Positions 3,072-63,960 of a DNA stretch of 64,000 nucleotides are shown piece after piece (the stretch's first letter is position 1; each line of letters begins with the position of its first letter). The DNA comes from Owenia fusiformis (Eukaryota > Annelida > Polychaeta > Sabellida > Oweniidae): positions 28,050,425-28,114,424 of the forward strand of contig CAIIXF020000010.1 in assembly GCA_903813345.2 (NCBI GenBank). Reading direction: 5' to 3'. Under the pieces are notes generated by a model, which saw only the letters and a list, made by a program, of their open reading frames with translations, did no database searches and had not been told where the DNA came from. The position numbers and the translations under genes were made by a program.

Positions 3072-6000
3072 TTATGATATAAATTTTTTAATAAATTGAT
3101 CTAAATAATGATTTACGTTTTCGTTTTCATTTACACAGTTTGCGTAAAACTTTAAATTGGATGCAATTTTTGATTTGAAGTTGACATTTTCATATTTATT
3201 CCTTTCTTCCGACAATTTTACCCATGTTGAATATATTGTGTAACCTATAATAGTAAGTATTAAATTTCTAAATGCTATAATATCACTTTCCATGCAATAA
3301 AAACCCAGAATAAAATGTTTCCAGAGTATTTTACATTTCAATATTTTTTCCACATCCTTCCATAGTGTTTCTACTAGCTTACATTCAAAAATAAGATGTT
3401 TTGCATTTTGAATTATATTACATTTTGAACAATTTCGGTTAATATTAGAGTTCCATTTACATATCTCACTTCCACATGCTAAAATGTTGTGAAGTAATTT
3501 AAAGTTGAATTCAGCATACTTTTTGTATTTCATGTTTGTTATTTTCAAGGAATATATTTTATCATAAAACGTTTTATCATGAGGAATGCTAAAAATATTA
3601 CTCCAATGTTTTTCTAAAACATTTCGTTCTTGTTTACTTTTTATCAATATATCATATAGCATATTTGTTTTCATCTCTTCTAATTTAATCCATTTATCAT
3701 TTCCTAAAAGGAAAGTTTTCCTATATTTTATGTTTGTGTATTTTACTTTTGTAGTATCATACTTATTCATCACATTTGTTATACAGGCTTTTATAAGAAT
3801 GTATTCTATCATCCAATTTCTTTTGTTAACAAGTTTGTTTTTTATATAGCTTTCATTATAGAAGGTTCCATTTTCATCATAGAAGTCTTTAACATATACA
3901 AATCCACTATTTATCCATTTTATGTTGTGTACCACTTCATTTTTAATTTTAAAAGATTCATTTAGCCAAAATATTTCTCCTATTAGATTTTGATCGTTTC
4001 TAGTTTTACATTTATTAAAAGCTAAGAAAATTTCTCTATAAAACAATGGCATAGGCAGTTTTGTATCTTTGGTAAAATGTGTTTTTATAAAATCATCAAT
4101 TTTAAAACCACACTGTTTGATATAATATTTTGGAATATCAATCCATGATGTGTCATCATCTTGTATTCTTTTCACCCAACTTGCTTTTAATGACATTATC
4201 TTTGTTTCAACGTCTATTAAGCCCAAACCACCATTTTTAATTTTTAATATTGTAGTTTTTCTTTTGATTCTATCTTTCTTCCAAATAAAATTATAAATGA
4301 TTGAATTTACTTTTTTGACAATTCTTTCGGGGACATCAAGGATAGAAAAGTTATATACTAGTTTTGAGATTCCTAATATATTGATAATCTGTACTTTACC
4401 AAATAAAGAAAGTTTTCTTTTTTTCCAAGATTCGAACAGTTTTTCAAATTCTAAGATTTTGGGGTTCCAATTTAGCTCTGCACATTTTTCTTTGTTATTG
4501 CCAATATAAATACCTAAGGTTTTAATTGGTTCATTTGTGAATTTAATATTTTCAAAGTATTCATCGGTTTGCTTTTTAAAATTACCTAGTGCTATGCCAA
4601 TTGTTTTTTCTAGATTGAGACATAGACCACTTACTTCCGAAAATGTTTTTATTTCTGTTAATGCATGTGAGATTGATTCTTTGTTTTCTAAAATTAATGT
4701 CGTGTCATCTGCATGTTGAATCACCTTTGTTTCTTTTTTGCCATCAATACTAATACCTTTGATTAATTTATTATTTTCTATTTTATTATTCATGATTTCA
4801 ACACATAAAATAAATAATAATGCAGAGATTGGGCATCCCTGGCGTATACCTCGTTCTATCTTTACTTCATTTGACAAAAAACCATTATTTTTTATTTTGA
4901 GAATTGGATTTGTATATAAAATTGTCACCCACTTAATAAACCTTTTGCCAAAATTCATTTTCTGAAGGACTTTGAACATAAAATTCCAATTAAGACTATC
5001 AAAGGCTTTTTTAAAATCTAGGCTAATTATCAATCCATTTCTATTCTCATTGTTTATAAGTTCTAAATAATCTATTAATAATCTGGCATTTGTTCCAATA
5101 AAGCGTTTTTCAAGGTATGCAGATTGATTTTTTCCAACAAGTTTTTTCACTAGGCTTTTTATTCTATTTGTTAATGTAAAAGCTATAATTTTGTAATCAT
5201 AATTAGTAAGACTTATGGGACGGTAATTAGCAAGGAGTTGTCGATCTCCCTTTTTGAAAATTAAGTTCAAGATCGCAATTTTCATGGTTTCACATAATTC
5301 ACCTTCTTGAAAAACTTCATTAATCATTTCCAAAAATATACTTTCCATATCTGACCAAAAATATTTGTAAAATTCAGGAGTTATCCCATCTAAACCAGGA
5401 CTTTTATTCAATTTTAGATTTTTCACTGATGAGTTTACTTCAGATTTTGTTATATTTACTTCTAAACTATTTCTTTCACTTTCAGTTAAGGTGTAATTAA
5501 GTTCTACTTCTTTTAGATAGTTGTTCATCACTTCTTCATCTGAATTATTATTTCTATAAAGGTTTTCATAAAATTTACAGGCTTCTTTTAAAATTTCAAT
5601 ATCTTCTGTGACGACCTTGGATGGCGTTTTTATTTTAGTTATAACATTACTGGTTTGTCTTTGTTTTTCTAATTGTAAAAAATAAGATGTACTTTTTTCC
5701 CCCTTTTCAATCCATTTAGCCCTCGATCTAATAAACATTCCACTTGATTCATATTCATACAATTTGTCTAACTTATTTATCATTTCATTCCTTTTGATAT
5801 TTAGTTCTGTTTTAACATTTTCTCGTTTACACTGATTTATGAAATTTTCTAAGCAATCGATTTGATCTTGTAAAATTATTTTGTTGTCCTTTCTTTGATT
5901 ACTCTTTTTAATTGAATGACTTATTGCAATCTGTTTAATTCTTACCTTTATCAGCTCCCAACATACCCTTTTGGACTTGAATGTTTTACTTTCTTGATTT

Positions 6001-6842
6001 ATTTCTTTGAGGTATTTTGATATATTGTTACAAAAATCTTGATCTTCTAATAATGAGTTGTTAAGTTTCCAGTATCCTTTCCCTCTCTTATTTCCTAATA
6101 ATCTTATATCTGTTATAACTGCTTTATGATCTTTTTTTAATGCTTGGAGTATATAGCTTTTTTTAATTTCAAGTCTGTTGTTTTTTGAGATAAAAATGTA
6201 ATCAAGTCTACTTTTACTTTTTAGGTTTTTGGTACTATACGTAAAGCCTATATTTTTGTTTGATTTATTATAATTTTCCCACGTGTCAATTAAAGTGCAG
6301 TTTTCAATAAAATGTTTTAGACTCTGTCTACTTTTATCATTTTGATGATATTTTTCTGTTGTTGGAAATCTGTCAGAATCTCTTAAAGCACAGTTGAAGT
6401 CACCACTTATTATAATATTACCTTCTATATGCTTATTACTTTGAATCCAACTATTAAGGTTGTCTAAGAATAATTTTCTACAGTTGCTTTCATTTGGTGC
6501 ATAGATTGATATTAAAGAAAATATCGTACCATTTATATCAACATTTGAGAGCAATCGTCTTCCATCATTACCGCTAACAATATTTAAAATTTTACACGAG
6601 AGTCTTTTGGATATTAATATGGAAACGCCTCTAGAGTGTTGGGAATCTGTTAATTCATTAATAAAGTCAAATTCATGAAAGCAATTTCTGATTTTGTTTT
6701 CATTTTTTAGAACACAAAATGTTTCTTGAAGAAAGATTATATCTGGTTTCTGATTTAATAGCCATATTTTTAATTTTTCTCTCTCTTTAAAATTGTTTAA
6801 TCCTCTGACATTCAGAGTAAGGCATCTGTAAGATACTAACAT
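3072..6842 (-). CDS. LINE ORF2: AP-like endonuclease and reverse transcriptase
   Basis: Encodes 1,256 residues and nicks the target DNA and reverse-transcribes the element RNA there. The N-terminal exonuclease/endonuclease/phosphatase domain (about 1-245) shows LTLNVRG with Asn11, FLQET with Glu40, SGDFNC, SRLDYIF and a DHKAVI histidine block. The reverse transcriptase (about 450-770) shows NYRPISLTNYDYK, DFKKAFD near residue 610, RQGCPISALLF, and the catalytic HADD near residue 710 where most relatives have FADD or YADD. The C-terminus has a CSKC...HLIFEC Cys/His knuckle near 1,120-1,145, as in L1/Tx1-type elements. The frame is complete, so the protein could be active. A host gene is excluded by the poly-A tail and target duplications. 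Placement at L1/Tx1 level is by motif only. Confidence 0.93.
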   Translation of the reverse strand: MLVSYRCLTLNVRGLNNFKEREKLKIWLLNQKPDIIFLQETFCVLKNENKIRNCFHEFDFINELTDSQHSRGVSILISKRLSCKILNIVSGNDGRRLLSNVDINGTIFSLISIYAPNESNCRKLFLDNLNSWIQSNKHIEGNIIISGDFNCALRDSDRFPTTEKYHQNDKSRQSLKHFIENCTLIDTWENYNKSNKNIGFTYSTKNLKSKSRLDYIFISKNNRLEIKKSYILQALKKDHKAVITDIRLLGNKRGKGYWKLNNSLLEDQDFCNNISKYLKEINQESKTFKSKRVCWELIKVRIKQIAISHSIKKSNQRKDNKIILQDQIDCLENFINQCKRENVKTELNIKRNEMINKLDKLYEYESSGMFIRSRAKWIEKGEKSTSYFLQLEKQRQTSNVITKIKTPSKVVTEDIEILKEACKFYENLYRNNNSDEEVMNNYLKEVELNYTLTESERNSLEVNITKSEVNSSVKNLKLNKSPGLDGITPEFYKYFWSDMESIFLEMINEVFQEGELCETMKIAILNLIFKKGDRQLLANYRPISLTNYDYKIIAFTLTNRIKSLVKKLVGKNQSAYLEKRFIGTNARLLIDYLELINNENRNGLIISLDFKKAFDSLNWNFMFKVLQKMNFGKRFIKWVTILYTNPILKIKNNGFLSNEVKIERGIRQGCPISALLFILCVEIMNNKIENNKLIKGISIDGKKETKVIQHADDTTLILENKESISHALTEIKTFSEVSGLCLNLEKTIGIALGNFKKQTDEYFENIKFTNEPIKTLGIYIGNNKEKCAELNWNPKILEFEKLFESWKKRKLSLFGKVQIINILGISKLVYNFSILDVPERIVKKVNSIIYNFIWKKDRIKRKTTILKIKNGGLGLIDVETKIMSLKASWVKRIQDDDTSWIDIPKYYIKQCGFKIDDFIKTHFTKDTKLPMPLFYREIFLAFNKCKTRNDQNLIGEIFWLNESFKIKNEVVHNIKWINSGFVYVKDFYDENGTFYNESYIKNKLVNKRNWMIEYILIKACITNVMNKYDTTKVKYTNIKYRKTFLLGNDKWIKLEEMKTNMLYDILIKSKQERNVLEKHWSNIFSIPHDKTFYDKIYSLKITNMKYKKYAEFNFKLLHNILACGSEICKWNSNINRNCSKCNIIQNAKHLIFECKLVETLWKDVEKILKCKILWKHFILGFYCMESDIIAFRNLILTIIGYTIYSTWVKLSEERNKYENVNFKSKIASNLKFYANCVNENENVNHYLDQFIKKFIS

Positions 6843-44398: not shown

Positions 44399-47047
44399 TC
44401 AAAATTTGGTGGTGGATTGGTTCTTGGTGGTACTGGTGGTGCGAATGATAGAAGATGAAGTTGGATTCCGCGTCAACTGTTTCAAACATTTCAGTGACTT
44501 AAGAACTCTCTTTGTACAGACAGATGCGACAAAAATAAATGCACCTTGTAAAGCATTCAGAAGAATGAATACATACCACACAAAATCACTTCCAACAAAT
44601 GGTGCCACAAATCCTAAAATCCAGGTGAATCCCATGATAATAAATAGTTTTATGTACACGTCCAGGTGATTTTCAGAGCCTGATTTCACCTTCGCGGTCT
44701 GTTGCCAAGTTTGACGAAGTTTCCATACAGTAAGAGAGTAAAAGACAATGTTGAACACAATCATGAGTGCGAGGGGCCCAGCAAAGAATACCAAATTAGC
44801 ATACGTGTTGGAAATCAAGCAAACTGGATCTCCATACATTGGTTTATAAGAGCTAGGTATGTCTGCATTATCCAGTGCTACAGACACACCTACTATAGCC
44901 CCTGGTGAAACCCAGGCAATCAAAGAGTATACCACAAAGCGTTTGAAGCCTTTATAGGCTGCTTGAAGAGTAGATCTGAATGCAAGGTACATATCGAGCG
45001 CAATGATGACCATCCAGGCAAACGTGACAAGATAAAAGTAGTGAATAAGAACACCAACTGTTTTGCAAGCCTCCATCATCCCAACTAGCATTGGCCCGAC
45101 TAAATAGAGAGAACTAGCAAGACACAAAGCAAGAACAAGTGAAAACTGCATCTTTCCTGATAAGGTATGGAAAACTGGCACAAAGATCTGAAGGATCAAT
45201 CTCGTAATCATGCAAATGATAGATATAGACAAGCATATAATTGTCACTAGCCCCATTGTGTCAGCGGAGTCTGCTAACAATGAATTCGAGCCAAGAGTAT
45301 CCGACTCCTCAATTACTTCTCCAAGAGCAGCATCAACAGTATCATCATTAACAAAGTTTTGTTGAATCATATCAAAACACGTAACATTGTCATATGATTC
45401 AACACACAGTTTTAGGGTATCGGAATCGAAGAAATATGTGTTGTAAATCTCATTGAACGCATCAAAAACTTCATAGAATGGAGTATTGTGCTCCAATGCT
45501 GTCTGGTTCACTGGTTTCTTGATTAGAAATACAGCAGTCAACGTACAATTTAGAGATTCACCATCATAATGAACAACGTGTGTCAAATTCGCTCTATTTA
45601 ATGGTCGCCCGACAAAAGACTGAAAAGCATCAATGAAACTGATATCACTCGCCAAAGCCTGTGTGTATGGTTGGGAAAAGGAGTATATCCACTTAGCAGT
45701 AAAGGTGTCTCGTGAATATACTTGCACACACTTTTCATTCCTGTATTCATAACCACGCTCACATACATTGTCGCAATAGCCATTCTTTTCACAGTTGTAT
45801 GTTAAACTTTCGCCATTGACATTGAATCCAATTTTTGTTCCCTTATTTGGATCAATATCGAGAAGAAGAGAGAATGAGAACTTTTTCAAACCGTTACTAG
45901 TACCACCACCATTAATGCTAAAGTATATGAGGCTACACATGAAGTGATCTGTCGGAATGTCATTACAGAAAGCACAGAATTCATTTTTGAAGTTCGTGTC
46001 ATGATTCGAGACAATCTGTCTAGGACTGTTATAGCACATGGCCTTGAGGGCATCACTGCCACAGTCTTCGCTGCATTCATCTGTAACCAATGAATAACAA
46101 CGTCTGGCTTGAGCTGTGAGTTTTATACGGCATCTTCCTTCATCAATATACTTCATCAGATCATCAATTGATTGAACAAGTTCTTCCTCGACTTCGCATT
46201 CGACATCACTAGGCCATGGAATTATATTCTCAACTGATACGTTATTACATATCGCACAATATCTATTGATGTAGTGTACATCACTCGAGTTATCATTAAC
46301 TGGTATAAGGTTCATGATTCCATCATCTGCGTTGACACATGTGTCCATATTTGGGCATGTATTTATAATTTGACGAAAGTCAGAAGAGGTCTTGTCATAA
46401 TCTATATCAATGCAATCAAACGTGATATTTTTTGTTGTCATATTTTCCTGGATTTGCTTGGCTACTTTTGCATCAGCAGGGCATGCGCTGTTATAATCTA
46501 GACAACAGTCTCTGTTGGATTGACAGTATATATCACATGAACAGAGAGGAGCATCTGGAATTTGTGTCTTCTCTCCGCATCTATTCATACAACTATACAT
46601 GCTTGGTTCTTCCATGCTACAGTTTGGTGTCATGAATTGTAACAGTTCCAAATCGAATTCAGCATCACATGGTCCCATATCATCAAATTCATACTCTAAT
46701 AATATTGGATCTAGGTGGATCGCAATTTGTGTGGTTTCGGCTTTACTTGGTGACATGACTGTAGTTGTTTCATTACTTAGTATTATGATGAAATCAAGGA
46801 AATCACCATAGTCAAAGTGTTTTTCTTCCTCCATCAGTGGTCTTTCATCGTCATTACCGGACACATTTTCCATTGATCGTTCATCGTCTGCCGCAAATGT
46901 AGTGGTTGGATTGTCCGTTGCAGCCACTGCAGTGATATTTATATCTCCATTTGATTCGGATTCTGTGTTAACATTTGCTTCAGCAACTTGGGCACAAAGC
47001 CTTATTAAAAGAAACAAAGTTATCAGAACTTCTATTTTAGATTCCAT
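44399..47047 (-). CDS. Somatomedin-B domain family B-type GPCR, intronless
   Basis: Encodes 882 residues in one exon, an orphan surface receptor. A signal peptide (VLITLFLLIRLCAQVAEA) spans about 6-23. An acidic, N-glycosylation-rich stalk is followed by a somatomedin-B-like domain with eight cysteines (153, 157, 169, 171, 175, 181, 182, 189; CDIYCQSNRDCC core). A long cysteine-rich ectodomain follows, with NRYCAICN and NEFCAFCN repeats (about 230-360). Seven membrane segments lie at about 598-845, including GFTWILGFVAPFV in TM6 and LNALQGAFIFVASV in TM7, typical of secretin/adhesion (family B) receptors. No GPS-like cleavage motif is seen before TM1. The cytoplasmic tail is short and Ser/Thr-rich. 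The start ATG is supported by the signal peptide. The architecture resembles Methuselah-like/adhesion receptors of marine invertebrates. Ligand unknown. Confidence 0.93.
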   Translation of the reverse strand: MESKIEVLITLFLLIRLCAQVAEANVNTESESNGDINITAVAATDNPTTTFAADDERSMENVSGNDDERPLMEEEKHFDYGDFLDFIIILSNETTTVMSPSKAETTQIAIHLDPILLEYEFDDMGPCDAEFDLELLQFMTPNCSMEEPSMYSCMNRCGEKTQIPDAPLCSCDIYCQSNRDCCLDYNSACPADAKVAKQIQENMTTKNITFDCIDIDYDKTSSDFRQIINTCPNMDTCVNADDGIMNLIPVNDNSSDVHYINRYCAICNNVSVENIIPWPSDVECEVEEELVQSIDDLMKYIDEGRCRIKLTAQARRCYSLVTDECSEDCGSDALKAMCYNSPRQIVSNHDTNFKNEFCAFCNDIPTDHFMCSLIYFSINGGGTSNGLKKFSFSLLLDIDPNKGTKIGFNVNGESLTYNCEKNGYCDNVCERGYEYRNEKCVQVYSRDTFTAKWIYSFSQPYTQALASDISFIDAFQSFVGRPLNRANLTHVVHYDGESLNCTLTAVFLIKKPVNQTALEHNTPFYEVFDAFNEIYNTYFFDSDTLKLCVESYDNVTCFDMIQQNFVNDDTVDAALGEVIEESDTLGSNSLLADSADTMGLVTIICLSISIICMITRLILQIFVPVFHTLSGKMQFSLVLALCLASSLYLVGPMLVGMMEACKTVGVLIHYFYLVTFAWMVIIALDMYLAFRSTLQAAYKGFKRFVVYSLIAWVSPGAIVGVSVALDNADIPSSYKPMYGDPVCLISNTYANLVFFAGPLALMIVFNIVFYSLTVWKLRQTWQQTAKVKSGSENHLDVYIKLFIIMGFTWILGFVAPFVGSDFVWYVFILLNALQGAFIFVASVCTKRVLKSLKCLKQLTRNPTSSSIIRTTSTTKNQSTTKF

Positions 47048-52035: not shown

Positions 52036-52276
52036 ATGGAAATTTCAAAATGCATTCTTTCGAGTATATGTATATGCATTGTGCTTATATCAAACATAAT
52101 GATGGAGTCGTGTTCAAAGAGGGGACCGCGAAATAGAACGCCAACAAATTTTACTGTGTACAAAAGAACTCTAACTTTAATCGCCGATGGCGTACGAGTT
52201 TCACGCAAGAAAGCTCCATGGCCAGACACGTGGCAGAACTTTTGGAATGACGCTGGATCGTCAACAGTAAAATTTG
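52036..52276 (+). CDS. Copy A exon 1
   Basis: Start ATG in context TTCAAAATGG, donor GTATGT. Encodes the signal peptide and ADGVRVSRKKAPWPDTWQNF. Conserved almost base for base in copy B. Confidence 0.85.
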
Positions 52277-55200
52277 GTATGTAAAACTACATAAAAAATA
52301 TATTTATCATGAATGTGAAATGAATTCGAATGAACTTATAGCATATTTATTATTCTTATAAATCGTCATCTATTCCTAAGAATAGCACACGTACGGACGG
52401 ACGTATAGAGCTGCGCAATAAATGATGACGTAATCAAAAGCTTCACAAGTTATACGGGAATAATAAACATGCTATTAGTGAGTTGCGTATTCTCTATGCT
52501 ATGAATAAATTCCTCGTAAGCGTCCTTCTTTACATTACCCGCTCCCCCCCCCCCCCCCTCCGAAAAAATATGTTGAACCTGTGTGAAAATATCCTCGGAA
52601 GGTTAGAGAAGTTATGATTAACAATATTGAGATATATTTCTAGCTTTTATCAAAACAATTTTCGTAGTTTTGAAACTTAACATACTTTTATATCTTTTGG
52701 GTGACAATCCATAATTTTCACCTTCATTTTCACTTGACATATTCAATAGCAAGAATGATAATATATTCTAAATTTAGGAAGAAAATTCATCAAGTGGGCT
52801 GATGAAGAGTATGGCATCAATGCTACTGCTCTCACAGATGAACAGCTAACAAATGGAGAGGAAGTGGACTTGGGGGGATTCTTCTATACACCTCATATGC
52901 CTGATATAACGTATAGAGTTATTTCGGAAACAACTAAGACGAAAATGACGTATTATAGGAATACACAAGTTAGAGATGCAGCGTTCGTCTTAATCGCTAA
53001 GAAGTCATTTAATAGTTCAGGTATGATCATATCAATTGGCTACATGACGCGTATGACGAATATGATGAAATTTCATCAAACAACATTCGCGACGAATGAT
53101 ACGATGCCCGATCAGAAAGTTTCTTATCAAATGCTCTCATTTTCTTGTTTCTTGAGATTTTATTTTTGAATGAGACTTACACAAAATAGATCTATGTTTC
53201 TGTATTCTAATTCTGGTAGAGTGGAGCAGGTGTCTCACTTTCAATATTAGGGGTAATTTCACGCCATTCATTAATACGGGCTATATGATGACTCTCTCCC
53301 AAGCTTCATGTGCCTTCAAAATATTCTTTTCTGAAGGAGATACCCTTCTATCTATTTACACAATTTTTGAAAACATGAAGAAGGTTTTCGTTTGGAATCA
53401 AATATTTTGTAGAGTCTGCCATGAAAACTTCAACTCATTGTCCTCAAATCTCAATTCACGGAAAGGCCATTTCGCCTCATGTAACAAATAGTAATTACAT
53501 CATTTTTAAAATGCATTTACACTTGCCATCTTGTGAAGAAAGGTTTTAGTCATCAAAATGCGGTGTCAAGGTATCTCTGTTCAATTTTCAGGCAATCTTA
53601 GAGAGACCATTCAAAAACACTGTGCAAAATGTGCGATATCTCCTGTTTTATTTCAAGAGATTTGCATAAATAGTTTGCAAATCTCCTTAGAATCCCCTAA
53701 AATATAGTCAGATATCAAATGTTTAATACGGACATAGTTGAGTATCATACCACCTATATCAAATTATTTGATGGTATGTCAAGGAATAGGTCCCAAATTA
53801 TACTAATTTAAATGGAGATATGATCAGGAGATTTGCAATCTATATTAAATATCTTCTGTCTATACTCTTAAAAACTGACTATATCTTACTATTCATACAG
53901 TACTGGATATACACAACAGGAGATATGCAGCCTATTCTGTGCTAGAGACAGCTTATTTCAGCTTATATCAGGAGATACTCCCAAATCAGACCCCCAAAAC
54001 AGGAGATACTCTAACTATACGAAATGACGTCATCAGGTCTCATTGCTTGCAGCGCTAATAAAGTAAAATCACTTATCTAGCTTATTAACCACAACTTAAA
54101 TATTTAAGCTATTAGATAAACAAATTGGAGAAGCTTATCCCTTCTCTGTTGTCTATTAATAAAGTGAATTGTCAATAAGATAAATAACTTTGTGATTTTA
54201 ACATTCAGTGAGGTAAAATGTATGTACAAAAGTTAATAAGTATTAGTTACATTCCATTGTTCAAAACTGTTTTCTTTAATTTTTAATTTTATATCATAGT
54301 TCCCCACACAAGTACCATTAGATTAATCCATAAATTATAACAAACTATTAATGTAAACTTGTCACGTGGATTTCTAAATAGAAACTACTTTATCAAAGGG
54401 ACTATAATCTGGTGGTTTTCAGATTTTATAAACACATTGTTTGAGATAACTAAATTGTTTTTTAACACTTATAATACAGCAGATATAATAGATAACAGAA
54501 AACATGAATTGTGAAATATAAGAGAATACACGTTGTTTAACAAAGGGCATACAGATTGTAGGTTGTATCTGTGTAATATGGAGCCTCTGTTCTCTAATGT
54601 AAACTCAATCTGAAGGTGAAACAATGTAGTAAAACCGAGTGGAAAACTCATTCATTAAAATAGTATTTTTCCACAGAATCGATGGATTTAATTCAAAATT
54701 TGACACAATGTTTATCATAGTGTTGGGGACATTATGCCATCAAATTTATTTAAAAGAATTCATTTGCAAATTATATTTATTGGAACTTAGAACCGTCAGT
54801 CATGATGGTTCTAAGTTCCAATCCATTAACTTTAATAAACGGATTAGTTTTCAAAACTCATTACACTGAAATTTAATAATTAGGGATTAAACATTTATGT
54901 TAGCATTTTGCTCTGACATGTCTCAAGATGTTATTTACATCATTTCCCAATACTACTCAATATTACAGAATATTTGACATTTACAATGGTATGCATCATT
55001 CTACAATAATATGCATTGATTCAAAATCCCGAATCCCAATTACTGCTCAATATTCAGTGTAACTTGACATTTACAATGGTGTGCATCATTTCAACAATAG
55101 TATGCATTGATTGAATATCCCAATTATTACTCAATATTATTGTATAAAATGACATTTTAATGGTATGCATCATTCTACAATAGTTTGCATTAATTGATTT

Positions 55201-57421
55201 CCCCAATTACTGCTCAATATTACAGTATAAAATGACATTTACAATGGTATGCATCATTCTACAATAATATGCATTAATGGAATTTCCCAATTACTGATCA
55301 ATATTACAGTGTATAATAAAAACAAATGTAGACCAATCTGATGTTTATCTCAGATAATCTAGATAACATAGAACATGAATTATGAAGTATTATGTTTCAT
55401 GCGCTTGTTCTTGTATCTCTTAATGTGACATTAAATTAATGCATAAACTCTAACAAATGGATTAATATAAAACTCAATGTGAAAGAGAAACAATGTAGTA
55501 CATGTCAAACCGAGAGGAAAACTTATTAAAATTAAAACAGTAACTTTCCACAGAGTTGATGGATTAATTTCAAAATTTAACACAATGTTTATCATAGCAT
55601 TGGGGACATTATGCCATCAAATTTATTTTAAAGAATTCATTAACAAATTATTTTTATTGGAACTTAGAACCGTCAGTTGTAGAAATTAATCCATTAACTT
55701 AAGTAAACGGATTAGTTTTCAACGGATTAGTTTTTCTCATTCCACTGAAATTGAATAATTAGGGATTAAACATTTATTTTAGCATTTTGCTCTGACATGT
55801 CTCAAGATGCTATTTACATCATTTCCCGATTACTGCTCAATATTACAGAATATATGACATTTACAATGGTATGCATCATTCTACAATAGTATGCATTGAT
55901 TCAATATCCCGAATCCCAATTACTTCTCAATATTCAGTGTTACTTGACATTTACAATGGTGTGCATCATTTCAACAATAGTATGCATTGATTGAATATCC
56001 CAATTATTACTCAATATTATTGCATAAAATGACATTTTAATGGTATGCATCATTCTACAATAATTTGCATTAATTGATTTTCCCAATTACTGCTCAATAT
56101 TACAGTATAAAATGACATTTACAATGGTATGCATCATTCTACAAAAATATGCATTAATGGAATTTCCCAATTACTGATCAATATTACAGTGTAAAATAAA
56201 AACAAATGTATTACTGAGACCAATCTGATGTTTATCTCAGATAATCTAGATAACATAGAACATGAATTATGAAGTATTAAGTTCCATGCAATTTACTTGC
56301 ATCTCTAAATGCGCCAATGAGATGTGTTATAAACTCTAACAAACGGATTAATTATCAATGTAAATTTGTCATGGTGATATTCTAAATAGAAACAGGTTTA
56401 TCGCAAAGACTAATCTAGTGTTTATCTCTGATATTTTAAACAAATTGTTTGAGATTACTAAACTGTTTTTAACATTAAATAGCTTTTCTTGTCAGGGGTC
56501 AACAATCTGCAGAGTAAAACCGATCGAGAGGAAAACTCAATAATTAAAAAATAACTTTCCATGGAGTTGATCAATTAGATTCAAAATTTAGCACAATGTT
56601 AATGATAGCATTAGGGACATTATGCAATTAAATGTATATAAAAAAATGAACTCAAAAATTATTTTTAAGGAAATAAGGACCCTCGGTTGTAGAAAATTAA
56701 TCCATTCACTCTAACAAACGGATTAATTATCAATGTAAACAAGTCATCAATCATTAATAAGCCAGATAAGTTACAGAAATAAGATGTGATGACGTCATTT
56801 CGTATAGTTAGCGTATCTCTTGTTTTTGGAACTCTGATTTAATAGTATATCCTGATATATGCTAGAAGAAGCTGTTGTTCATAGAATCAGCTAGTATATC
56901 CTTTCTGTAGATATGATAGAGTGGTAGACAAACTATATGTTAGCCTTGATATATAACACAGCTTATATTAGTTCATATTTACTAGAGTGGCAAATAGTAC
57001 TAACTATACTAGTTGTCCGCCAACTATCTGGATATAGCTTGTGTCTATACAACACGGGATATACGGGAGATATTTCACACTATGACAGTTGATATTAGAG
57101 CATAGTTAACAGGATATTCTATTACTATATAGCCTTTTTTGCACAGTGAAAGGCGCTATCCTGTTCATGGGAGCGTACATAATTGACACCAGTAAAGAAT
57201 GCGGGTTTAGCAAGAAGCCAGAGGTGATCAGCATCACATGCAACATGGACCCAAGAGCTGAAAATGGATTTGGACCCTTTGTCTGCGATATGTTTTCACG
57301 AAAATACGGAGTGGGCGAACAAATTGGTTTAAGTGTAGTAACATCTCCAAACTACTACAAAGCAGCCTCGGTTATTTTCTTTCCACCGGCCGCCTTGATA
57401 ACTGAACCTAATAAACCTTAA
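52036..57421 (+). CDS. Secreted protein of unknown family, copy A (exon 3 hit by a transposon)
   Basis: Exon 1 is 52036-52276 and exon 2 is 52778-53020, both phase 1. The ancestral exon 3 began at 53591 but is split by a 3,531-bp element after CATTCAAAAA. If the acceptor TTTTTTGCACAG formed by the right end of the element (57,145-57,146) is used, exon 3 is 57147-57421 and the product is 252 residues. Otherwise translation runs into the element and stops after about 38 residues. The product has a hydrophobic N-terminus ending near residue 23 (probably a signal peptide), a basic segment with NRTPTNFTVYKR, a WPDTWQNFWNDAG block, and a C-terminal block GFGPFVCDMFSRKYGVGEQI. I do not recognise the family. 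Whether it is expressed, and with which exon 3, is unknown. Confidence 0.7.
52330..52500. mobile_element. MITE in intron 1 of copy A
   Basis: About 170 bp with inverted ends ACTTATAGCATATTTATTATT and AATAATAAACATGCTATTAGT..GAGTTGCG. The interior is CAATAAATGATGACGTAATC. Same family and position as 62,056-62,242 in copy B. Confidence 0.75.
52778..53020 (+). CDS. Copy A exon 2
   Basis: Acceptor AAATTTAG, donor GTATGA. Encodes GRKFIKWADEEYGINATALT, then MPDITYRVISETTKTKMTYY and RDAAFVLIAKKSFNSS. The frame and both phase-1 boundaries are conserved in copy B. Confidence 0.87.
53591..53617 (+). pseudogene. Stub of ancestral exon 3 in copy A
   Basis: Acceptor TTTTCAG at 53,584-53,590, then GCAATCTTAGAGAGACCATT, identical to the start of copy B exon 3. 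It ends where the transposon begins. Reading through gives a stop (TAG) inside the element after about 38 residues. Confidence 0.85.
53618..57148. mobile_element. 3,531-bp CACTG-ended non-autonomous transposon inside exon 3
   Basis: Ends CACTGTGCAAAA (53,618) and TTTTGCACAGTG (57,148), flanked by AAA (53,615-53,617 and 57,149-57,151). Copy B shows the uninterrupted site, so the 3-bp duplication is confirmed by comparison. Short motifs near GGAGATAT/GGAGATAC recur in both orientations near each end, like subterminal repeats of CACTA (CMC) elements. The middle has three diverged units of about 870 bp (54,360, 55,440 and 56,340 on), each with blocks of TGGTATGCATCATTCTACAA. No transposase. Confidence 0.87.
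57147..57421 (+). CDS. Copy A exon 3 remainder, with transposon-derived acceptor
   Basis: The last 2 bases of the element (TG) join the single G carried over from exon 2 to give Val. AAAGGCGCTATC then continues in the original frame as KGAILFMGAYIIDTSKECGF to the stop at 57,419-57,421. Compared with copy B this replaces GNLRETIQE by VK. Confidence 0.6.
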
Positions 57422-57437
57422 AACAATTCTGTTAGTG

Positions 57438-57685
57438 AGATTTCACAACTTACTTTTAGGATGTTTATTTTTCCCGTATAACATATAACTTATGAAGCGT
57501 CTTATTACGTCATCATTTATTGCACAGCAATATACGTCCATAAATTCTTTCGTATAGATGACGATTTATAAGAATATCACACTTATGGATGTTTAGAGCT
57601 GCGCAATAAATGATGACGAAATCAAACTCATCATAAGTTACAAGTACGAGAATGATAAACATTACATGTTATGAGTTAGAGGGAA
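57438..57685. mobile_element. MITE just downstream of copy A
   Basis: Starts GAGATTTCACAACTTACTTT. The interior has CGTCATCATTTATTGCACAG and its inverse TGCGCAATAAATGATGACG, and the end is near ATGTTATGAGTTAGAG. It is an inverted-orientation relative of the intron 1 MITE and is present at the same place after copy B. Confidence 0.72.
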
Positions 57686-57689
57686 ATAT

Positions 57690-59378
57690 TCAAATAAGAA
57701 CCTGGTACAATAAAACGTACGTTTAACTTGTTTTGTTGGTTACAATTGACCTTTGCAAGCCACAAGTGCAATCGACGCGACCGTAGGATCCCCCTGCGGC
57801 CGCCTTGCATCCGCCTTGGTATTTGTCAAAAACCGCTCGCCATAAGGACGCCCTACGTTGACCGTGCGTCAACGTTAACCGTTAAAGTAGCAAATGTAAC
57901 TGCTAAAGAGTTATTATTTTTGCGACTCTATTGCCTGTGAAAAACTGAATACGCCATACGAAGACCGTGAGGCAACCGTAGATTTTGTACGGCTGCCCTA
58001 GGAATTTACCGATTTCAATGAACTACGGTCGACGCATGGTCACCATGGAGCAAATTAGGTTTTATTGGTTTAATTCGAAAAAAGACTCAAAAATGGCTCC
58101 TCAAGTTACCTGAAGTTAATCATTATCGAGACAATAATTAGGGTGGTTATGTATTTGGGCCACCCTTTATATACTCAAAACCCATAAACTCTCTATTTTA
58201 TGAAGTTTGAATTTCCACACCTACCAAGGTTCTAGGTAAATAACGAGCGGGAATATATACTGTATCTAGGGATCTATCACTGAGTAGCGGGGCGGGATGG
58301 ATACAGCCTGTATCCACCGGTCCAGATCTTAAAAAGGGAATTCGATTTACGTTCGCTTTTCCTATGCATACAGAAAATAAAGATTATTGAGAGGTTAAGC
58401 AAGACGATTTTTTATGACGTGAACCACAAACGTAGACCTTTACGTTCCGTTTACGTACTATGAACAAAACTGCTTTAAGCTGAGCACTTTAGACGTAACG
58501 TAAACGCAAACCTCAAAATTATTATCTTTTGTTTTTCTTAGCGGCCTTTCGTTTTATTTTCTACTTTAAACGTATACTTTAAACGTAAAAGATAAATATT
58601 ACTTTATTGACAAATTGATGAAAGTGTTAACAAAGGAGATGTTTCACAGCCTGGCTGTGTTCTATGACATGTTGAATCTTACAAAATACAACAGGACGCA
58701 ATAATATTTGAAATGTCTTTTAAGCATTCATAGTTTTATTACTATTGTGTCACAATATGTATAGTAGAATTAAGATGAGTTGACATGTGGGCAATTGCCA
58801 TGCATGTAATCTTATCATATTTTACACAGAAATGGGTGGCTCCATATTCAAGTTATATTTGATTAGATTGGACACAAATAATCTCGATATATACACAGAT
58901 TTGTGTCAAACATATTTATGCATTCGACCTACATCATATTTATATCAATCGAACTTGATGAAGTACGAAAAATCCGTTACGGAACGACCTACATAGACTT
59001 TGATTTTTCACGTTTGGATGTACGTAAACGGGGAAATACGTATACGTAGAACAATAAGACGTCACATCCTGAGAAAAACCTGCGCGCGCCTTCCCGTTCG
59101 CGCTTTACGTTGTAAAAAGTATTTGAAGCAAAGACAATGATGTAGGTTTGATGTAGGTTTTAAAAAAATAATCTGAGGAAGGCATTAAGGATTTCATGTT
59201 TGATTTTTGTTGTATTCGTTTAGGAAGACATTTAACTTTCTAATAACGTTAAAAGATTTTCGAATAGAGCTCGATTTTTTAGTAGATGCTATGACACGTG
59301 AATAATTCTGTGCCACTATTTTGTGCAATTTTGATGTTTTTGTAAACTTTATGGATTTATAACTGTATCAGCGTTCAA
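57690..59378. other. Spacer between duplicate copies
   Basis: Includes a GC-richer stretch (57,770-58,060) and several ACGTAAACG/CGTTTACGT motifs (58,430-59,060). Part may be the 5' region of the LINE that follows, including GC-rich sequence near 59,085. No gene recognised. Confidence 0.45.
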
Positions 59379-60203
59379 TTGGAATATACAAAGAGAATGG
59401 GTAAGCTCAAGAAATCGCAAAAGTGTAAACAGGACAGTCAAAAACAGACTTCAGAAAGTTCAGCTGGTACAAAGGAAAACACTGAAAAATCAAACATGGC
59501 TGACATTGGAAAACGATTTGGATTTAATACAGACGGACCTAAAATGGATTCAAATACTTCAGCATCAATAATGGCATTGGGTGCTACGATCCAAACATTA
59601 CAACAACAAATGAACCGAATCATGGATCAGAATATTGGAGTCCTCAAACAGATTGATCTTCAACGAGCTGAGTTGGTGAGTTATTTTGAGACTAAATTGG
59701 AACAACAAAAAGCTGAAATATTACAACATGTTAATGCAGTATCTGCTGAAATCAAGAAATTGAAATACCGTATTGATGGATTTGAGAAACCTTGTTATAC
59801 CTCGAATGAAAGTTCAGTAAATGAACTTGTAATTGTCATAAAGAATCTGCCGGAATCTTCAGAAATATTGGATTCTACCATGGTAAACAAAGTACTGTCC
59901 GAAATTGTATGTGATGATAACCCGATAGATGTGTGCCCCACTGATGTCAAAAGACTACCAAAAAGGCATGATAATGCTGGTATTGTACTGGTTACGTTGA
60001 AATCTCCCGAGGACAAAGCACGTATATTGAAGTCAAAAGCGAAATTAAAATACTCTAAGGAATACAACAACGTATTTGTGGAGCAGCAAAAGACCAGGAA
60101 ACAGCTAGAATTGGAATATACTTTGAGGAATATGCAGAGATTCAGTAAATTCTGGCCACACCAGAGCAATAACATTGAGGCCAGGGGCTCCAGGATTACA
60201 TGA
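59379..60203 (+). CDS. LINE ORF1-type protein
   Basis: Encodes 274 residues. The N-terminus (1-60) is basic, Lys/Gln/Ser-rich and disordered. Residues about 65-135 form a heptad-rich coiled coil (ALGATIQTLQQQMNRIMDQN ... KLEQQKAEILQHVNAVSAEI). An RRM-like half follows with VNELVIVIKNLPESSEI, DVKRLPKRHDNAGIVLVTLK and KARILKSKAKLKYSKEYNNV. This matches L1/CR1-type ORF1 proteins, which bind and chaperone element RNA. No ORF2 follows. The end, ARGSRIT, suggests a short or altered C-terminus. A second in-frame ATG at residue 7 could also be the start. Confidence 0.82.
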   Translation: MEYTKRMGKLKKSQKCKQDSQKQTSESSAGTKENTEKSNMADIGKRFGFNTDGPKMDSNTSASIMALGATIQTLQQQMNRIMDQNIGVLKQIDLQRAELVSYFETKLEQQKAEILQHVNAVSAEIKKLKYRIDGFEKPCYTSNESSVNELVIVIKNLPESSEILDSTMVNKVLSEIVCDDNPIDVCPTDVKRLPKRHDNAGIVLVTLKSPEDKARILKSKAKLKYSKEYNNVFVEQQKTRKQLELEYTLRNMQRFSKFWPHQSNNIEARGSRIT

Positions 60204-60556
60204 ATTTATTTGGTTTCATGGGCCATCAACAAACAATAGCCGGCTGAGTTGATATACTTGTGGTAAAATGTCATGGACATTAATACTACTAATACTTGGA
60301 CTCTCATTGCCTACATGTATCATAAATAAGCCTTCTTAGCATGAGTGGATTATTCGACATTCTAGTTATTGACTGATTGTCGGTCTTTAATATTTTTTCA
60401 TTCAAAATCAATAATTTTATTAGCAATATTTCTGAGATGGACAGTGTCTCATAAGCCATTGTTGGCTTGGGGCTTTTGAATAATTGAACGTATAATTATG
60501 TAACATAATAGGCCTGTGACACTTTAATAAATAATAAACTAAACTAAACTAAACTC
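59379..60556 (+). mobile_element. ORF1-only (half-LINE) retrotransposon copy
   Basis: ORF1 is followed directly by about 350 bp of 3' region ending in AATAAATAATAAACTAAACT and repeated AAACT, a short-repeat 3' end like those of CR1-type LINEs. There is no endonuclease or reverse transcriptase between them, so the copy has lost, or never had, ORF2. The 5' boundary is not fixed (possibly near 59,050) and no target duplication was identified. Confidence 0.65.
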
Positions 60557-61490
60557 TACCCACGAAAATTGATCGGTTGGAAAATGTTGGGTTTTTCACA
60601 TTTCCTTTGATCATTTTTAACTTGAGTTATTTGGACATCTCATACATCAAAGTTGAAATGCAATAACTGGTTTGAATTCCATTTGCTTAACATCATTTGA
60701 TATCTATATGTATCCTCTTCTTTGAAAAGTGGGCTTTTCCTTGGTCAGTACAAGTGTAGCATGCTGGATCTGGATGACTTAAACAAACGAGTAAACCCAT
60801 TTGAGGACATGTCACGCAGGGTCGATTGGACAACTTGGAGAAGGTCATTCTCATCTATAAAGGTCTAACTGCGCTGATTAGCATTTCGTTCTCCTGATAC
60901 AAGTGAAATTAGATATTGCATGACCATGAGAACATATCAGTCATCTTAGACCTCAAGACCTGGCTACTTTATAGCTGCAGTGGTCTTAAATGCTGACTTG
61001 CGGACAGGTACGTTATTAATAAGGTAGATGGTTGGCTTCAAATTGGGCCTGACTTGTATAGCAACACCATTACAATAAAAGAACTAATAAATCAAGAAAT
61101 ACTGTATTGTAATACGTGAATTAAACACTTTTTTTAGTTATTCAAAAATATTATATATCACAGAACCCCAAAGTTTGCTTTGTTATCAACCCAGCGCACA
61201 CCGCACATCTTATCAATTAGGCCTATTAACATGACAAGCACATTGGTTGCATTCATTTTTGGCCACCCAGGTAATATTGAATAAAGGGGATTTTAGCACT
61301 TAGTGATTAGAATTTGGCCATCGGCTCTTGAAGCTGCTATAATGTTTATTGAGGCTCGAATCATGTATGACTGCAAGTCAGAAATTGCACAGTCTAATTT
61401 CAATTCGAAAGAATTGCTTTCTGGCAAAAATAAATCAGAAAGTGCGAATCTTGACCAATCATGGCTGGGCTACTACATGCACTATTGGTA
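60557..61490. other. Spacer before duplicate copy B
   Basis: AT-rich, no coding or repeat feature I can support. Confidence 0.45.
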
Positions 61491-61667
61491 ATAGTCTTTA
61501 CATTCATTGTATTGGCGTAGATATGTACATAGAGGTAATAAAAAATATCAGGACTCAGGCAAGCATGAAATGGTGTTTGGGGAGTAAACTAATAATTTAA
61601 TTAGAAACTATTACTGCATTTCCGCACTTAGTGCTTGACTGCTTGTGAAAAAATCATAAAATTCAAA

Positions 61668-61908
61668 ATGGAAATTTTAAAATGCATTCTTTTGAGTATA
61701 TGGATATGCACTGTGCTTATATCCAACATAATGATGGAGTCGTGTTCAAAGAGGGGACCGCAAAATAGAACGCCAACAAATTTTACTGTGTACAAAAGAA
61801 CTCTAACTATAATCGCCGATGGCGTACGAGTTTCACTCAAGAAAGCTCCATGGCCAGACACGTGGGAGAACTTCTGGAATGACGCTGGATCGTCAACAGT
61901 AAAATTTG
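61668..61908 (+). CDS. Copy B exon 1
   Basis: ATG in context TTCAAAATGG, donor GTATGT. 80 codons plus one base. Signal peptide and KAPWPDTWENFWNDAGSSTV. Confidence 0.87.
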
Positions 61909-63670
61909 GTATGTAAAGCAATAAAATATATTTATAATGAATGTGAAATGAATGAACATGCCAGTTGTACAAACAGGGTCAAAATAATGATGCTATTCTT
62001 CAATGGGGTTGAATATACCACTAGAAAATGTATGCTAAACATTGTACATATTAGAGAGACTTCGCAACTTACTTATAGCATGTTTATTATTCTTATAAAT
62101 CGTCATCTATGCGTAAGAATATCACACGTACGAACGGACGTATAGACATGTGCAATAAATGATGACGTCAGTTATCAAAAGCTTCATAAGTTATACGGGA
62201 ATAATAAACATGCTATAAGTGAGTTGCGTATTCTCTATGCTATAAATAAATTCATCATAAGCGTCGTTCTTTACATTAACCCCCCCACCCCTCCCCCTCC
62301 GACACAATGTGTTGAACCTGTGTGAAAATATCCTTGGAAGGTTAGAGAAGTTATGATTAACAATATTGAGATATATTTTCTAGCTTTTATCAAAACAATT
62401 TTCGTAGTTTTGAAACTTAACATACTTTTATATCTTTTGGGTGACAATTCATAATTTTCACTAACATTTTCACTTGACATATTGAATAGCAAGAATGATT
62501 ATATATTCTAAATTTAGGAAGAAAATTCATCAAGTGGGCTGATGAAGAGTATGGTTTCAATGCTACTGCTCTCACAGATGAACAGCTAACAAATGGAGAC
62601 GAAGTGGATTTGGGGGAATTTATCTATACTCCTTATATGCCTGATATAACGTATAGAGTTATTTCGGAAACAACTAAGACGAAAATGACGTATTATAGGA
62701 ATACACAAGTTAGAGATGCAGCGTTCGTCTTAATCGCCAAAAAGTCATTTAACAGCTCGGGTATGATCATATCAACTGGCTTTATGACGCGTATGACGAA
62801 TATTATGAAATTTCATCAAACAACACTCGTGACGAACGTTGTCGTACGATGCCCTATCAGAAAGTTTCTTAATAAATGCTCACATTTTCTTGTTTCTTGA
62901 GATTTTATTATTTGAATGAGATTTACATAAAATATATCTATGTTTCTGTATTCTAATTCTGGTAGGGTTGAGCAGGTGTCTCACTTTCAATATTAGGGGT
63001 TTCACGCCATTCATTATCATTAATACTCATAAGGGATATATGATGACTCTCCCCCAAGCTTTATGTGCCTTCAAAATAATCTCTTCTGGAGGAGATAACC
63101 TTCCTGTATCTATTTACACAATTTTTGAAAACATGAAGAAGGTTTTCGTTTCGAATCAAATATTTTGTAGAGCCTGCTTTGAAAACTTCAATCATTGTCC
63201 TCAAATCTCAATTCACGGAGAGGCCTTTTCGCCTCATGTGACAAATAGTTATTACAACATTTTTAAAATTCATTTACATTTGCCATCTTGTGAAGAAAGG
63301 TTTTAGAATCATACCTTATGGACCGAGTCATCAAAATGCGGTGTCAAGGTATCTCCGTTTTGTTCAATTTTCAGGCAATCTTAGAGAGACCATTCAAGAA
63401 GGCGCTATCCTGTTCATGGGAGTGTACATAATTGACACCAGTAAAGAATGTGGGTTAAGCAAGAAGCCAGAGGTGATCAGCTTCACGTGCAATATGGACC
63501 CAAGAACTGATAATGGATTTGGACCTTTTGTCTGCGATATGTTTTCACGCAAATACGGAGTGGGCGAACAAATTGGTTTAAGTGTAGTAACATCTCCAAA
63601 CTACTTCAAAGTAGCCTCAGTTATGTTCTTTCCACCGGCGGCCTCGATAACTGGACTTGATAAACCTTAA
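61668..63670 (+). CDS. Secreted protein of unknown family, copy B (intact, three exons)
   Basis: Exons 61668-61908, 62518-62760 and 63375-63670. Introns are GT-AG, both phase 1, and the spliced product is 259 residues. A hydrophobic N-terminus (CILLSIWICTVLISNI) suggests secretion. The mature part starts with a Cys and a basic KRGPQNRT stretch with potential N-glycosylation sites (NRT, NFT, NAT, NSS). Other blocks are WPDTWENFWNDAG, KWADEEYG, MPDITYRVISETTKTKMTYY, ILFMGVYIIDTSKECG and GFGPFVCDMFSRKYGVGEQI. There are few cysteines and no transmembrane segment after the signal. I do not recognise a domain. It is the undamaged member of the tandem pair, and conservation of frame and splice sites in both copies supports a real gene. 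Confidence 0.85.
62056..62242. mobile_element. MITE in intron 1 of copy B
   Basis: About 187 bp. Ends GAGACTTCGCAACTTACTTA and inverted TAAGTGAGTTGCGTATTCTC share about 30 bp (CTTATAGCATGTTTATTATT inward). TA lies on both sides, as for Tc1/mariner-derived MITEs. Confidence 0.78.
62518..62760 (+). CDS. Copy B exon 2
   Basis: Acceptor AAATTTAG, donor GTATGA. Encodes GRKFIKWADEEYGFNATALT through AFVLIAKKSFNSS. Confidence 0.88.
63375..63670 (+). CDS. Copy B exon 3 (terminal)
   Basis: Acceptor CAATTTTCAG, stop TAA at 63,668-63,670. Encodes NLRETIQEGAILFMGVYIID through ASITGLDKP. It gives the empty-site sequence for the transposon in copy A (CATTCAAGAAGGCGC). Confidence 0.88.
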
Positions 63671-63680
63671 ACTTTTGTAA

Positions 63681-63960
63681 GGGAGATTTCACAACTTGCT
63701 GGTAGGATGTTCATAATTCCCGCATAACATATAACTTATGAAGCGTCTGATTACGTCATCATTTATCGTGCAGTTCTATACCCCTGGTCCTATACGTCCA
63801 TTAACTTGTGATATTCTTACGTATAAGACGACGATTTATAAGATTATCACACTTATGGACGTTTAGAGCAGCGCAATAAATGATGACGTAATCAAACTCG
63901 TTATCTAAGGTATACGTTATACGGGAATAAGAAACATGATATAAGTGAGTGGTGGAATCT
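63681..63960. mobile_element. MITE downstream of copy B
   Basis: Counterpart of 57,438-57,685. It begins GAGATTTCACAACTTGCTGG, its interior has GCGCAATAAATGATGACGTA and its inverse, and it ends near GTGGAATCTCTC. Confidence 0.7.

Follow-up and report, generated by a model that had tools for sequence, protein, structure and literature searches.

Results

A tandem gene copy split by a CACTA-like element

The window analysed here is a stretch of 64,000 nucleotides from the annelid Owenia fusiformis (contig CAIIXF020000010.1, C10 among the contigs searched, positions 28,050,425 to 28,114,424). At 52036-63670 it holds two copies, A and B, of a gene with three exons, and a third tandem copy, C, lies just outside it (L077); the three copies encode an uncharacterised protein of 259 residues with a signal-like start. 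The gene family has 65 exon-level matches in the genome (498 Mb in 525 contigs searched), and no name for it was obtained from Pfam (copy B and two paralogue frames) or PDB (copy B), neither of which returned a match. The product of copy B has the full 259 residues. Exon 3 of copy A is split, 26 nt downstream of its natural acceptor, by a CACTA-like transposable element whose right end resembles a splice acceptor (Table 1). The original prediction held that this end is an in-frame acceptor serving as an exit from the exon, possibly selected to reduce harm to the host or acting as an intron generator.

The interruption of exon 3 and its flanking 3-bp duplication (AAA on both sides) are confirmed. 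Copy B, cited there as the intact site, is indeed uninterrupted, but it reads ATTCAA GAA GGC at this point and is thus one base off the duplicated triplet. Copy C is uninterrupted at the site as well. As copies B and C both read GAA at the target codon and copy A reads AAA, the change from G to A probably took place in copy A earlier than the insertion, and the duplication is still fixed at 3 bp by the lengths of the sequences, despite the base difference. Both introns of copy A are in phase 1, and joining 53020 to 57147 gives G+TG, AAA and GGC followed by an open frame to the normal stop, that is 252 instead of 259 residues, exactly as predicted. Because the sequence added by the terminal site is invariably TG and three more bases, one such site in three would match the frame by chance. 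The predicted intron measures 571 nt if the natural acceptor is used as against 4,126 nt via the terminal CAG, and in the former case the stop codon is met ahead of the first good donor of the element (53774).

Table 1. Positions within the window of copies A and B and of the element inserted in copy A.
Feature	Position	Strand	Remarks
Copy A exon 1	52036..52276	+	ATG start, phase 1 end, donor GTATGT; aligned to copies B and C
Copy A exon 2	52778..53020	+	Phase 1 on both sides; donor CAG/GTATGA, score 6.2
Copy A exon 3, 5' part of 26 nt	53592..53617	+	Natural acceptor TTTTCAG is intact; the intron ends at 53591
Target site duplication AAA, left	53615..53617	+	
CACTA-like element, 3,531 bp	53618..57148	+	No open frame of at least 120 residues; splits copy A exon 3
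Left terminal inverted repeat CACTGTGCAAAA	53618..53629	+	12 bp, present at both element ends
Stop codon met if natural exon 3 acceptor is used	53705..53707	+	199-residue product
Near donor-like site, best in element	53774..53779	+	ATG/GTATGT, 4.89; past the stop at 53705-53707
AATAAA	54057..54062	+	First of five in element; others at 54158, 54834, 55315 and 56195
Donor-like site similar to that at 53774	54213	+	GAG/GTAAAA, 5.0; past the stop at 53705-53707
Right terminus TTTTTTGCACAG/TG	57135..57148	+	Putative acceptor CAG at 57144-57146; the exon would begin with TG at 57147-57148
Target site duplication AAA, right	57149..57151	+	In-frame Lys codon
Copy A exon 3, remainder	57149..57421	+	Open up to the normal stop
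Copy B, uninterrupted	61668..63670	+	Exons 61668-61908, 62518-62760 and 63375-63670

The element family and its ends

Each 250-bp end of the element was searched against the genome, and 40 matches were listed per end of the 58 and 52 candidates, which gives a family of at least 40 matches per end, a few of them pieces of one copy. Two subfamilies appear among the matches listed, one with 94-98% identity to the copy A element and the other mostly with 77-79% at the left and 88-91% at the right end. From these, 33 end pairs were assembled (copy A, 18 further pairs of subfamily 1 and 14 of subfamily 2), three of which were dropped because of two broken right ends and one displaced left end. Perfect 3-bp duplications flank all 30 scored copies, and the flanks of the dropped pair with the displaced left end also match by eye (TGT/TGT). 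The left ends of subfamily 1, located through CACTGTGCA, start with the 12 bases CACTGTGCAAAA in 18 of 18 cases, and the left 30-mers are identical in 17 of these recognised ends. At the right, the ends recognised as intact share the same 16 terminal bases in 17 of 17 and the same 30 in 16 of 17, and in two other copies the final bases are missing. The claim that insertions of the family carry the same exit is to this extent supported for subfamily 1. Both ends are about equally invariant, which fits a requirement of transposase binding.

The features expected of the CACTA/CMC superfamily were compared with those of the element. Inverted repeats starting with CACTA or CACTG are represented by CACTGTGCAAAA at both ends, the duplication is of 3 bp throughout, and subterminal repeats occur as the motif GGAGAT/ATCTCC and as imperfect inverted arms (53948-54047 and 56775-56875, 82%). 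The motif, chosen after a 7-mer count, is found eight times in the terminal 2x450 bp (seven left, one right) and not once in the 2,631 bp between, compared to a mean of 0.3 and a maximum of 4 in 2,000 shuffles. Together these features point to a CACTA-like element, which is probably non-autonomous. Of its 400 terminal bases, only 7 depart from the subfamily 1 consensus. Internally it contains a duplication (54943-55242 and 55823-56122, spaced by 880 bp and 96% identical over 300 bp) with eight repeats of 75-bp units.

Strength of the putative terminal splice sites

Acceptor matrices were derived from the same genome, using 28 non-redundant introns of the copy A gene family (20 exon-2 loci were fetched for acceptors and one, L080, was dropped as it has no open frame) and 16 myosin junctions, 44 sites in all. 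The myosin junctions were set by codon bookkeeping: of 39 adjacent exon pairs entered, eight were skipped because their spacing was too wide in the model or too narrow in the DNA. Of the other 31, 15 lacked a GT-AG junction that was consistent, which left 16, including one (L120) with a weak donor which may be wrong. A first matrix built on the gene-family introns only, on which the terminal site fell below all 28 natural sites and 26% of the AGs in the window were as good, was replaced because it was biased, nearly all its exons being homologous and having G at the start.

In the right end eight pyrimidines, CCTTTTTT, precede GCACAG, in agreement with the original reading of a pyrimidine tract with a CAG after it, and the end is comparable with natural acceptors. 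On the -18..-3 matrix it scores 1.39, above 14 of the 44 natural sites, and 7.0% of the 6,356 AGs on both strands of the window score at least as high. When position +1 is included it exceeds only 4 of 44, with 11.1% of window AGs as good. The terminal CAG is thus a middling acceptor. The natural intron-2 acceptor of copy A is intact and reaches 6.79 on the same -18..-3 matrix, and the equivalent site of copy B 3.68. The left end, read in the opposite orientation, has a score of -5.34 and ranks beneath every one of the 44 natural sites, with 59% of window AGs as good (on the myosin-only matrix it lies above 2 of 16, with 42-45% as good), while the typical subfamily 2 end, TTTTTGGCACAG (TTTTTGG), scores -0.96, above 8 of 44. 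As a donor, the GT of the left end has a score of -7.0.

Insertions in other coding frames

Two of the 30 scored copies, copy A and C5:3842031-3846810, are inserted in host-like exons, and two others, at C12:16793171 and C11:810740, in frames that look transposon-like by eye. The C5 copy (flanks L106 and L107) belongs to subfamily 2 and lies antisense in a coding-like exon, the frame of which is related to diverged sequences at four places elsewhere (26-43% identity) and has only sub-threshold matches in Pfam. This exon follows a phase-1 intron (AG/GA GAC), the duplication CAC is a codon and the terminal CAG is frame-compatible. Two further frames at insertions, of 142 and 171 residues, have no Pfam match and were excluded from the gene count, and the follow-up was mostly confined to frames of greater length than the remaining ones. 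Twelve copies were read at one end; one of them adjoins a frame of 166 residues resembling by eye the endonuclease of a LINE (long interspersed nuclear element), and the other eleven adjoin frames of at most 57 residues. The mean coding length of a gene is about 1.4 kb. Multiplied by the 26,966 genes given for O. fusiformis (PMC9977687), this length corresponds to a coding share of 7-8% of the genome, at which two host-like insertions in 30 are about the chance expectation.

Relation to known splicing transposons

Splice sites at the termini of maize En/Spm (dSpm) elements were reportedly described by Menssen et al. in 1990. In C. elegans, Tc1 is said to be spliced out of the pre-mRNAs of mutants (Rushforth and Anderson, 1996), and introners, or intron-generating DNA transposons, are reportedly the subject of Huff et al. 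(2016). Like the splicing envisaged for copy A, this takes a DNA transposon out of the gene of an animal, but Tc1 belongs to another superfamily and its splicing was, according to the title of that work, reported from RNA.

The idea of terminal splicing is already known in plants, since a soybean paper citing Menssen 1990 among others states that in Spm the CACTA ends at times imitate splice sites and are taken for the ends of an intron (PMC4219821). The first and last 5 bp of CACTA elements, CACTA and TAGTG, are moreover described as highly conserved (PMC4158355), and a terminal YAG/TG therefore comes with the superfamily. Like maize En/Spm as reported, the copy A element has CACTA-type ends that may act as intron ends inside genes. 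It differs in that it is known from sequence alone, in that its left end offers no good donor and in that the donor would be that of host exon 2. For an animal CACTA end acting as acceptor, no report was found in a literature search on titles and abstract openings, with subscription papers mostly outside it.

Introners occur as introns in many genes, in families with median lengths of 30-654 nt and 5 to more than 2,000 copies (Gozashti et al. 2022, PMC9860276), and according to the same paper some families share with the present one terminal repeats and target duplications, and some bring their own 3' splice site. The copy A element is, in contrast, 3.5 kb long, the scored copies of its family lie mostly outside coding frames, and splicing it out would remove coding sequence ahead of the insertion site. 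The TRC elements of animals, such as SmTRC1, are also members of the CACTA superfamily, but are characterised by CCC ends and 2-bp duplications (PMC1636069) as opposed to the CACTG ends and 3-bp duplications found here.

Predicted fate of the copy A transcript

The explanation favoured here, to which a probability of roughly 0.7 is given, is that copy A is a tandem duplicate disrupted by a fairly recent CACTA/CMC insertion, that the acceptor-like end is a by-product and that the outcome is mostly a truncated transcript with at most minor rescue. A transposon of this type that lacks its own transposase gene would have entered exon 3 of one of the three tandem copies, bringing an end in which the superfamily terminus (CACTR, read outward as YAG and then TG) follows a T-rich inverted-repeat stretch; it would be because these two adjoin that the right end is acceptor-like. 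The likeness would accordingly be a by-product of the end recognised by the transposase, as is reported of maize En/Spm, rather than a host-sparing device. Most copy A pre-mRNA would be spliced to the natural acceptor at 53591, enter the element and stop at 53705-53707, whereupon polyadenylation or downstream splicing would result in a truncated product of 199 residues or in decay. A minority may skip to the terminal CAG and yield the 252-residue in-frame protein. Such a mechanism is plausible and has a maize precedent, and it is probably minor in copy A. The anatomy, the family, the target duplications, the frames and the site scores are shown directly, and the RNA outcomes together with the reason for the sequence of the end are inferred from them.

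Several observations weigh against this explanation. A transposase frame was found neither in the copy A element nor in five longer copies read whole (9.7, 13.8, 14.5, 9.1 and 6.3 kb), judged by frame length and by eye and with a 138-residue frame of the 6.3-kb copy outside the scan, so that the CACTA assignment rests on the ends, the duplication and the subterminal repeats. On the myosin-only matrix the right end stands above 8 of 16 sites, about the median, and only 2.6-3.2% of window AGs are as good, on which grounds the terminal acceptor may be used substantially. The subfamily 2 end lies above 7 of 16 on that matrix, nearly equal to the right end of copy A, and its weakness (8 of 44 versus 7 of 16) is hence matrix-dependent. 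The two host-like coding insertions are both frame-compatible, for which the chance is 1/9, the C5 case depending on the weak left end. Outside the insertion copy A has no stop or frameshift and its exon lengths are equal. Selection on copy A after the insertion was approached through counts of nonsynonymous and synonymous changes by lineage (two ambiguous sites omitted), and these, 15 and 10 for copy A versus 9 and 8 for copy B, do not differ between the two (Fisher p 0.75) but have little power. As there are few changes in copy A, the absence of further damage tells little about its function.

A stricter form of the favoured explanation, in which copy A is nothing more than a pseudogene and splicing rescues none of its transcripts, falls slightly short of even odds. 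It is in line with the strong natural acceptor leading to a stop, with the five AATAAA motifs in the element and with the two intact tandem copies nearby, but the presence of a usable-looking in-frame acceptor speaks against it. It is unlikely, on the other hand, that the terminal CAG is truly used, exon 2 being joined to 57147 to make a functional 252-residue protein that loses GNLRETIQ(E/K) and gains VK. The frame open to the normal stop, the eight pyrimidines ahead of GCACAG with their near-median rank among the 16 myosin introns, the lack of any other disabling change in copy A and the plant precedent stated in PMC4219821 would all agree with such use. However, the natural acceptor, 3.5 kb upstream, is intact, closer to exon 2 and much stronger (6.8 versus 1.4), so that the terminal CAG cannot be upheld as the likely main site; the 44-intron matrix with +1 ranks it low, the frame match is a one-in-three event, and an otherwise intact copy A is unsurprising, since the element differs from its consensus at so few bases. 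Less probable still is the wider proposition that a CACTA acceptor works in Owenia, making copy A a gene for a 252-residue variant, rescuing the C5 gene likewise and reflecting a general property of CACTG/YAGTG ends, those of animals included.

That the end was selected for less harm, or that the family is an introner-like intron generator, is very improbable: some known introners with signs of DNA transposons do bring their own 3' splice site (PMC9860276) and both host-like coding insertions are frame-compatible, but CAG/TG is simply the superfamily terminus, the reverse-orientation end is poor on either matrix, the subfamily 2 end is somewhat weaker on the 44-site one, the ends of subfamily 1 are about equally conserved, as transposase binding would demand, and insertions in host-like coding frames are about as frequent as chance allows. 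With a middling acceptor, a stronger natural site and a poor reverse end, selection for harmless splicing is unsupported. Nor do many copies among the 30 scored look like precise introns in coding sequence, as those of introners do: two lie in host-like coding frames, and splicing by the element's own ends would need a left-end donor, which is poor here.

If the end is used, the splice-like termini of plant CACTA elements would work in animals too, following from the fixed end sequence of the superfamily, and each insertion in an exon would leave TG plus the 3-bp duplication, with a one-in-three chance of restoring the frame. At present, copy A offers a clearly defined test case, for which the explanation is mostly ordinary.

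Transposase-like sequences and other features

The longer family copies were considered as autonomous partners and rejected, as their extra length consists of LINE-like frames, seen in two of the five, or of sequence without long frames. A Chapaev-type CMC element is one conceivable source of the family. Transposase_21 is found at 14 places elsewhere in the genome, nine of which have an identical score and the same open frame of 608 residues, and CACTGTGCAAAA is absent from the five regions of 9-10 kb read around such places. The one end located there reads CCCC, a CCC-type end as described for animal TRC elements. Two of the nine places (L110 and L111, at C1:24242559 and C9:16113973) are 99.9% identical over 8 kb, the right end in reverse complement being CCCCGGCGAAATG, and this element looks recently active.

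Related inverted-repeat stretches near GCGCAATAAATGATGACGTAATCA, resembling miniature inverted-repeat transposable elements, lie in intron 1 of copy A (52399-52454) and downstream of both gene copies (57481-57645 and 63727-63904). On the minus strand of the window, 3072-6842 contains an open frame of 1,256 residues with the look of an endonuclease and reverse transcriptase, LINE-like by eye, and 44399-47047 a single open frame of 882 residues which, by eye only, resembles a seven-helix receptor whose outer part is long.

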